DNA of 49,546 bases, taken from contig DYMX01000008.1 of assembly GCA_020721345.1 (NCBI GenBank), forward strand, positions 1 to 49,546, given 5' to 3'. The stretch comes from Sulfurovum sp. Lineage in GTDB: Bacteria; Campylobacterota; Campylobacteria; Campylobacterales; Sulfurovaceae. The number at the start of each line of letters is the position of its first letter. Positions within the stretch are counted from its first letter, which is position 1. The translations under genes and the position numbers were made by a program. The notes beneath the pieces are model-generated. The model was not told where the DNA came from, did no database searches, and saw only the letters and a list, made by a program, of their open reading frames with translations. This document shows positions 1-1,908 of the stretch, one piece after another.

Positions 1-53
1 CCATTTTCATCTGGTTGTGCTAATTCTAAAAATAATTCTTGTTGTGTTGCCAT
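1..53 (-). CDS. Start of a third gene in the restriction-modification-like operon (partial)
   Basis: Only the first 17 codons are inside the window; the gene runs off the left edge on the minus strand. The visible N-terminus is MATQQELFLELAQPDEN. Its ATG shares one base with the TAA of the upstream nuclease-like gene (TAATG), so it is almost certainly translated by coupling in the same operon. By position after a methyltransferase and an EVE-nuclease gene it could be another restriction or specificity component, but that is inference. The fragment is too short to assign to a family. Confidence 0.6.
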   Translation of the reverse strand, partial: MATQQELFLELAQPDEN

Positions 54-1111
54 TATATTATTTGACTCCCTAATATATTCCAATTATTTATATAATCAAT
101 TTCACTTAGTATTATTCCATTATTTTGTAATTCGTATTCAAAATATTTTATTGGGCTACTCATATTTTTATTATTAAAATTTATAAATTCGAAGGTTCTT
201 GAAGATGTTTTTCTATTGCCATTAATTTTGCAACCGACAATAATTGGCTGAAAATATTGAGGATTGAAATATTGAAATCTATTTTGAAGCCATTGAATAT
301 ATTTTAAAACTTGAGAAGTTATGTTTGGCGGTATTTCATCCCTTTTAACTTCAACGATATTAAAAATGTTATTTGAATCTATAGTTAAAATATCGATTGC
401 TTGCATTCCTGCACCAGAATACACTTCATTGCCAAGCCATACGGAATTTGCGAAAATCAAATTTGGCAAATATTCAATCAATAAAGCATGTAAATGATGT
501 TCTGTATAGTTACTGTTCAAAATAATATTTTTAATATTTGGATTATTTCCATATCCAGAATATGGTATATTTGATATAGAAGGCAATATTTGATAACCAT
601 CAAAAGAGAAGTTATTCCCAATCAATGGCATTTGATTATTCATTATTGATAATTTATGAAAAATTATTTGGTATTCGTGTTGAAATATAGGACTACACCC
701 TCTGCCGCCTTTTAATTTTCTATATAAAATACTCCATAAAATATCAGTAACATTATTAGGTAATATATCTATTAAATCAAATTCGTCAATGCCATTAGAA
801 AAAACTATATCTGGCGCCATTAAAGCTCTGTATTGAAGCATTACATCATTGCTGTCTCCCAAATAAGGTAATGGGTATGGCTGTAAATAGTGACTATTAT
901 CATAAAATGGAGTAGATGTAACTTTAAAAAATCCATAAAATTTTTTTGTTTTTTGAACATAAAAAACTATTTTATCATCAATTTTTAATCGAGCTATATC
1001 TTTCCATAACCCTACATTAAAATCATTACTTGAATTTCCAGTACCAACAAAACCATATTCAATGTGATATTTTAAACTTATTTCATCAACAACAAATAAA
1101 TGATAATTCAT
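53..1111 (-). CDS. EVE/PUA-like domain fused to a NucS/DUF91-like (PD-(D/E)XK) nuclease domain
   Basis: About 352 residues. Residues 1-120 (starting NYHLFVVDEISLKYHIEYGF, with a central FYGFFKV strand) resemble an EVE/YTH-like PUA-fold module, a type known to read modified bases. The C-terminal third carries a nuclease-like core: a Glu near 213, Asp near 240 in AIDILTID, then EVK near 254-256 and a helix QVLKYIQW, the layout of NucS/DUF91 and other RecB-like nucleases. The ATG at 1111 overlaps the methyltransferase stop (TGATG); a TTG one codon upstream is less likely. The likely role is the restriction arm of the operon, cutting according to base modification. Domain calls are by eye and the EVE call is the weaker one. 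Confidence 0.6.
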   Translation of the reverse strand: MNYHLFVVDEISLKYHIEYGFVGTGNSSNDFNVGLWKDIARLKIDDKIVFYVQKTKKFYGFFKVTSTPFYDNSHYLQPYPLPYLGDSNDVMLQYRALMAPDIVFSNGIDEFDLIDILPNNVTDILWSILYRKLKGGRGCSPIFQHEYQIIFHKLSIMNNQMPLIGNNFSFDGYQILPSISNIPYSGYGNNPNIKNIILNSNYTEHHLHALLIEYLPNLIFANSVWLGNEVYSGAGMQAIDILTIDSNNIFNIVEVKRDEIPPNITSQVLKYIQWLQNRFQYFNPQYFQPIIVGCKINGNRKTSSRTFEFINFNNKNMSSPIKYFEYELQNNGIILSEIDYINNWNILGSQII

Positions 1112-1908
1112 CAAAACTCCTTCTTAAACACAAAAATATATTCATGTTTGAAAATATAATAATCACTATTTAAAGCCCTATATCTCCAAATACCACCAAC
1201 TCCAAGTTTCCCTCGATTTCCCTCGACATTTTTGATAATTGTCCCTTTGAGTTTCACTTTAAAATTTCGTTTTATCATATCCATACAATAAAATCCAAGA
1301 GGTATCACTTCCCCATTTTTATATACATCGCCGATAACAACAGCAAAATATCTATCTTTATCAAGATGTTTCAAACTATTTTCACAAATGATTTTAAATT
1401 TTTTCACAAATTCATTGATATTATCTATCTTTGACATATCATTAACATCATCTGTAAATTTCACTATATCCATATAAGGTGGGTGCATAAGTACGAACTG
1501 AACACCTTTGGTTTTGAATTTTTCATTTGCATTTTGGATATTTTCATCCACTTGCTCATTATCCAAACTATTGCAATGATTGATATAAAAATTACTTTCA
1601 TATTTTCCATCACTCATAGCACCGTTTACATATTCAAACATAGCTGGATTTATATCAAAACCGATATATTTTCTCCCCAATTTCTCGCACTCAAAAAGTG
1701 TCGTTCCACTTCCCATAAAAGGTTCTAGAATAACATCAAATTCTTGTGTGTATCTTCTGATAAGTTGATTTGGAATTTGTGGAATAAAATTTCCATGATA
1801 AACATTTTTGTGTTTACCACTCTTATCCCTTTCGCTGATAACCCATAGCGAATCTGTATCAATGTCAAGTTCTTTCCAATTTGTGAGATCTAAATCATTA
1901 TATTTCAT
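1111..1908 (-). CDS. SAM-dependent DNA methyltransferase (N6-adenine or N4-cytosine amino type)
   Basis: 265 residues. The SAM-binding motif I is EPFMGSGTT (residues 62-70), followed by GRKYIGFDINP, where the Asp should hold the SAM ribose. The catalytic motif IV is HPPY (142-145), a variant of the D/N/S-PPY tetrapeptide of exocyclic amino methyltransferases. Motif I precedes motif IV, unlike classic beta-class enzymes that share the FMGSGTT sequence. The protein ends in HEYIFVFKK, typical of this superfamily. It is first in the operon, has its own TATAAT-like box upstream and an AAGAGA ribosome site, and overlaps the EVE-nuclease gene by one base. It probably protects host DNA or makes the mark the partner reads. 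Target base and site cannot be read from sequence. Confidence 0.85.
   Translation of the reverse strand: MKYNDLDLTNWKELDIDTDSLWVISERDKSGKHKNVYHGNFIPQIPNQLIRRYTQEFDVILEPFMGSGTTLFECEKLGRKYIGFDINPAMFEYVNGAMSDGKYESNFYINHCNSLDNEQVDENIQNANEKFKTKGVQFVLMHPPYMDIVKFTDDVNDMSKIDNINEFVKKFKIICENSLKHLDKDRYFAVVIGDVYKNGEVIPLGFYCMDMIKRNFKVKLKGTIIKNVEGNRGKLGVGGIWRYRALNSDYYIFKHEYIFVFKKEF

Follow-up and report, generated by a model that had tools for sequence, protein, structure and literature searches.

Three tightly linked genes stand at one end of the window, the whole stretch of 49,546 nucleotides that was analysed: a DNA methyltransferase (M1), a protein with EVE-like and NucS-like domains (gene 2) and the start of a third gene (gene 3). 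The question raised by this locus is whether methylation directs the nuclease to its DNA, as an EVE-like domain might imply, or holds it back. The latter is favoured here. With a probability of about 0.6, this is a type II restriction-modification (R-M) operon of the CATG type (NlaIII/HpyIM-IceA1), in which gene 2 is a second restriction endonuclease, unrelated to the first and guarded by a D12 methylase.

Layout of the operon and domains of gene 2

Contig C21 of a 51-contig, 1.24-Mb assembly makes up the window in full and gives no room for extension to the left. Features are listed in Table 1. The sequence-only reading had described a three-gene operon with one-base overlaps, a methylase as its first gene and an EVE-like plus NucS-like nuclease fusion as its second. 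The genes, with their overlaps, were found at the place that it gave, on the minus strand. M1 was matched by PF01555 (Pfam, E 4e-22) and by PADLOC MTase_II (E 3e-85). Gene 3 runs for 17 codons before the contig end and its readable part is MATQQELFLELAQPDEN(G).

Table 1. Coordinates of the operon features in the window.
Feature	Position	Strand	Description
M1, DNA methyltransferase	1111..1908	-	265 aa; FMGSGTT precedes HPPY (permuted N6/N4 type); PF01555 and PADLOC
Gene 2, EVE/YTH-like + NucS-like nuclease	53..1111	-	352 aa from ATG; predicted restriction endonuclease
Gene 2 aa 41-75, EVE-like	887..991	-	PF01878; EVE structures matched by the profile
Gene 2 aa 205-278, NucS_C-like and catalytic	278..499	-	PF01939; EndoMS/NucS top fold matches
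Predicted active-site residues D240, E254, K256, Q267, Y271 of gene 2	299..394	-	Conservation and NucS spacing
Gene 3, 5' end, predicted IceA/NlaIII-type HNH restriction endonuclease	1..53	-	Cut by contig end; N-terminal residues and synteny
TGATG, M1 stop/gene 2 start overlap	1109..1113	-	
TAATG, gene 2 stop/gene 3 start overlap	51..55	-	TAATG likewise in L002, L003 and L018

The gene block has a G+C content of 27.9%, against 35.1% in the remainder of the window. Upstream of M1 lies a histidine kinase gene, which was followed by other genes in the four congeners examined (kinase identity 49-60%). The low G+C and the different genes after the kinase indicate that the M1/gene 2/gene 3 block was probably acquired horizontally. 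Across the window (1-49546), GGCC is strongly depleted (10 sites, 81 expected) and CATG moderately so (98 sites, 172 expected), with similar avoidance in several related genomes.

None of the library models used matched gene 2 above its cut-off. Single-sequence HMM scores were E 0.019 for EVE (PF01878; 15.4 bits, curated cut-off 23) and E 0.059 for NucS_C (PF01939; 13.8 bits, curated cut-off 24). The NCBIfam NucS model was matched at E 3e-6 over aa 201-296 only (26.3 bits, cut-off 216). The PADLOC models that matched were solely candidate defence models, within the nuclease part. Full membership of the EVE (PF01878) or NucS family was rejected on these sub-threshold scores, and the domains are accordingly termed EVE-like and NucS-like. 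Among 13 homologues, nine matched PF01878, weakly (best E 0.0022), and eight matched PF01939 (best E 0.0005). When a profile of the 13 was compared with known structures, EVE structures were recovered (1wmm, E 0.002; 2p5d, E 0.0065); NucS 2vld was matched at E 0.22.

The five predicted active-site residues are invariant across the 13 homologues. Their spacing is identical to that of the catalytic residues D160, E174, K176, Q187 and Y191 of P. abyssi NucS (PMC7343888). Gene 2 differs from NucS/EndoMS in its R-M context and in its N-terminus, which is EVE/YTH-like where NucS has a DNA-binding and dimerisation domain; no match to the NucS N-terminal domain was found in gene 2. AlphaFold models of gene 2 from a five-sequence input were of low confidence (pLDDT 56 and 50), and for this reason fold matches served as support only. 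Best PDB matches of the pLDDT 56 model were EndoMS/NucS, followed by YTH, EVE and VcaM4I entries (E 0.0016 and weaker), the part of gene 2 covered by each being assigned from the sequence evidence. A viral fold library gave nothing specific for gene 2. Together, the profile, residue and fold comparisons support, weakly at the N-terminus, an EVE/YTH-like domain followed by a NucS/EndoMS-like PD-(D/E)XK domain whose catalytic residues are intact. The fusion and the methylase were thus correctly called from the sequence.

Relatives with the same gene order

Conserved triads were sought in other genomes and found at three loci, L002, L018 and L003 (counted in the census as G349). Their M1-gene 2-gene 3 order is that of the window, with genes overlapping or abutting, and their gene 2 proteins are 70-74% identical to that of the window. 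Recurrence of this order indicates that the arrangement is not due to chance. Gene 3 is complete at all three loci and starts with nearly the same residues as in the window, 16/18 being identical to the IceA start in L002 and 15/18 in L018. The two complete third proteins that were scanned matched ICEA (PF05315) at E 3e-80 (L002) and 2e-73 (L003). In these relatives, the third gene is followed by a gene for a small HTH protein and then by a D12 adenine methylase, present in L002, L003 and L018 (PF02086, E 1e-52; PADLOC type II methylase, E 2e-137).

From its 17-18 residues and the synteny, gene 3 of the window is predicted to encode the N-terminus of a restriction endonuclease of the IceA/NlaIII type. 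It is not, on this assignment, a gene unrelated to DNA processing. A second methylase, of the D12 (NlaIII/HpyIM CATG) kind, is expected beyond the contig end, and the contig stops before the place where it should lie. All contigs of the window's assembly were searched, and neither iceA nor a D12 methylase was found on any other contig. The operon of the window is of the form with both nucleases and a second methylase.

IceA1 is a functional NlaIII isoschizomer that cuts CATG, and hpyIM encodes a CATG-specific methylase (PMC2816704, PMC4687069, PMC13340068). In that system, as in the window's relatives, an IceA-family HNH endonuclease adjoins a D12 N6-adenine methylase. The present locus differs in its extra methylase, M1, in its extra nuclease of another fold and in a D12 gene that falls outside the window's assembly. 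The known NlaIII/HpyIM-IceA1 R-M system is here seen in variant form, a point missed by the sequence-only reading, which had rightly taken it for an unusual restriction module. According to PMC4687069 and PMC4658567, C. jejuni ST-677 likewise has iceA1, hpyIM and an additional 'orphan' methylase in one cluster. Judged by gene order, this cluster is probably of the L025/L028 locus type; the passages of the two papers that were consulted make no mention of a gene 2-like nuclease.

Distribution and exchange of the nuclease genes

A census was made of 397 genomes from a single phylum, Campylobacterota. Genes with gaps under 5 kb were placed in one cluster, and D12 was counted at E below 1e-60. Gene 2 was present in 13 genomes, ICEA in 41 (part of the short matches being fragments) and D12 in 100. 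Clusters with gene 2 comprised five gene 2-D12, three M1-gene 2-D12, two M1-gene 2-Ice-D12 and two M1-Ice-gene 2-D12; those without it comprised 23 Ice-D12, 11 M1-Ice-D12, six M1-D12 and 56 D12 alone. D12 was in the same cluster at 12/12 gene 2 loci where the contig continues, compared with its presence in 100 of all 397 genomes (for presence alone, P is about 4e-8, uncorrected for shared ancestry). At five loci gene 2 immediately precedes D12, with neither M1 nor IceA in the cluster.

These five loci are a stronger argument than position in the M1-D12 slot. Location alone is no proof of shared specificity, since the slot can house unrelated systems with their own methylases. In L106 (2417-6370; G200), an entire R-M system is nested between M1 and D12; it consists of a BpuJI-like endonuclease (PF11564, E 1e-112) and two methylases of the C5-cytosine type.

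Further occupants of the slot were recorded. In L099 (2778-5150) and L101 (2781-5194), D12 is preceded by M1 and by three further proteins, of GmrSD_N, HEPN and divergent IceA-like type; this is a further defence cassette, which may be composite. Slot genes of L108 (2401-3078), L110 (2591-3271), L107 (2308-3042) and L109 (2690-3415) have a common N-terminal stretch; that of L108 has an HNH_2 domain and that of L109 was assigned to no family. A Cys-containing protein of 73-84 aa precedes gene 2 in L020 (6171-6401), L024 (141-395), L025 (7521-7742) and L028 (7711-7932). It resembles the N-terminus of the divergent IceA-like proteins and is perhaps a DNA-binding helper. A protein of 417-419 aa lies between gene 2 and D12 in L022 (7312-9185) and L027 (7784-9043), accompanied in L022 by a 207-aa protein whose family also adjoins D12 in L123. 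Neither the 417-419 aa nor the 207-aa proteins had a convincing Pfam or PADLOC match.

Relatives of M1 (44-88% identity) were clustered with iceA, gene 2 and/or D12 in 25/31 other places. A hidden gene 2 was sought in seven genomes with M1 and no known gene 2, and none was found. Viral scans returned two contigs only. One viral contig, L049, has M1-gene 2 and no D12 within 11.8 kb. The occurrence of M1 beside either nuclease, and with gene 2 in L049 where no D12 is seen, suggests that M1 may also give protection. L050, also from the viral scan and truncated, leads into a D12 start in inverted orientation and is probably a rearrangement or chimera. Searches of plasmids and phages with the window protein gave no matches; with the L049 protein as query they gave one distant match, in Halobaculum. 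This solitary homologue (WP_277556200.1; L052, 5995-7167; Halobaculum limi plasmid NZ_CP120469.1) keeps the catalytic residues. Apart from an arsenite methyltransferase, no annotated methylase lies within 6 kb of it, and it is possibly a stand-alone form.

Gene 2 and iceA swap beside a 96-98% identical methylase in close relatives. At one rplQ site, three genomes of one genus have the orders rplQ-gene 2-D12 (L026), rplQ-broken iceA-D12 (L074) and rplQ-D12 (L125). Compared with D12 of L026, that of L074 and L125 shows 96.4-97.6% identity; the D12 proteins of the rplQ site have 84-86% identity to those of the same genus beside iceA at cysE-type sites. Blastn homology at the rplQ site stops at the D12 start, the junction with the nuclease gene, and restarts upstream of the nuclease gene. 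L024 and L023 (gene 2-D12) were also compared with L085 and L083 (iceA-D12). Their D12 proteins are 96-98% identical, the nucleases are unlike, and a 30-bp leader with TATAAT is identical, with no homology in the stretch from leader to D12. A remnant of the iceA start lies upstream of the gene 2 cassette in L020. In the D12 tree, gene 2 partners are interleaved with IceA partners and well-supported branches force at least five label changes. The gene 2 tree was usable for the window clade alone and otherwise too poorly resolved. As a separate observation, gene 2 of L028 (6564-7708; G011) and iceA of L074 (2461-3094; G185) are both in pieces beside an intact D12.

In H. pylori, restriction genes are known to be replaced while the neighbouring methylase stays (iceA1/iceA2 and hpyIIIR/hrgA; PMC13340068, PMC4687069). 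There too the swap is at a fixed site, but the replacing genes have not been demonstrated to be nucleases of gene 2 make-up.

Role and target of gene 2

The constancy of D12 and the replacement of iceA by gene 2 argue that gene 2 most likely serves as an alternative restriction enzyme, with the CATG methylase as its guard. Gene 2 would bind DNA through its EVE/YTH-like domain and cut it through its NucS-like PD-(D/E)XK domain. D12, probably with help from M1, would methylate the target and so protect host DNA, and in other lineages gene 2 would take the place of IceA as the nuclease. If D12 methylation suffices against gene 2, the gene 2 target should be CATG or overlap it. The target in the window clade may differ, since its gene 2 has only 31-36% identity to most other forms. 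CATG avoidance was rejected as evidence for the target: CATG is also avoided by Helicobacteraceae controls that lack the system, G271 (gene 2-D12) does not avoid it, and avoidance did not separate genomes with gene 2 from those without it. Counting against the restriction enzyme reading are the solitary Halobaculum homologue and the absence of D12 from the window's assembly.

The main rival, with which the Halobaculum protein would fit, is a modification-dependent (type IV-like) nuclease, in which the EVE/YTH-like domain flips and reads a modified phage base and the NucS-like domain cuts. Such an enzyme would complement IceA, which is unable to cut modified phage DNA, and would simply travel with the CATG locus. 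Precedents exist in VcaM4I, an EVE nuclease reading 5mC/5hmC (PMC7897488), and in a YTH-McrB reading m6A (PMC12707154); both domain types resemble the gene 2 N-terminus, and gene 2 occurs together with IceA in four census clusters and L002. Like VcaM4I and other PUA-superfamily modification-dependent nucleases, gene 2 has its EVE-like domain N-terminal to the nuclease domain. Unlike them, it is PD-(D/E)XK and not HNH, linked to a methylase and exchangeable with a methylation-blocked enzyme. A type IV-like nuclease needs no methylase, yet in the 397 genomes gene 2 was always with D12 where the contig continues. A complement also has no need to replace iceA itself, and a loosely sequence-specific m6A reader would attack the CATG-methylated host. 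This explanation is considered unlikely. The modification-directed system that the sequence-only reading had raised as a possibility from the EVE-like domain has so far found no support, and the gene 2/iceA swap points to a methylation-blocked enzyme.

Another proposal is that two R-M pairs are fused, M1 guarding against gene 2 at one target while D12 guards against IceA at CATG. This would account for the direct joining of M1 and gene 2 in L019 and the window clade, and for L049. It is at odds with the five loci that have gene 2 and D12 without M1, and with the 11 clusters lacking gene 2 in which M1 lies upstream of iceA, and appears improbable. Similarly doubtful is the idea that gene 2 recognises D12's own adenine methyl mark through its YTH/EVE-like domain, as a stop signal or a cue for placing the cut; if true, gene 2 would be a PUA-superfamily m6A reader in conventional R-M and not in a type IV system. 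The least probable reading makes gene 2 no restriction nuclease but an accessory protein of the R-M operon, or a repair factor, that handles damaged or mismatched DNA in the manner of NucS. The catalytic domain is indeed nearest to the mismatch nuclease EndoMS/NucS, but the NucS N-terminal domain is unmatched, gene 2 is the sole recognised nuclease beside D12 in several loci, and it swaps with iceA.

Novelty appears to lie in the gene 2 family, in the swapping of gene 2 with iceA and in the presence of gene 2 and IceA in one operon; a survey of EVE/DCD proteins (PMC7641849) does not mention NucS, iceA or Helicobacter. A predicted restriction-enzyme family is added in which an EVE/YTH-like domain is paired with a NucS-like domain. 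The loci give natural evidence that unrelated nucleases are exchangeable under one protective methylase, or can be stacked so that one mark guards two. The 'orphan' methylase of iceA1/hpyIM clusters is suggested to be a recurrent component of the locus. If the restriction enzyme reading is confirmed, a methylation-blocked enzyme would contain a working PUA-superfamily domain, and restriction would have recruited a nuclease fold of mismatch repair.
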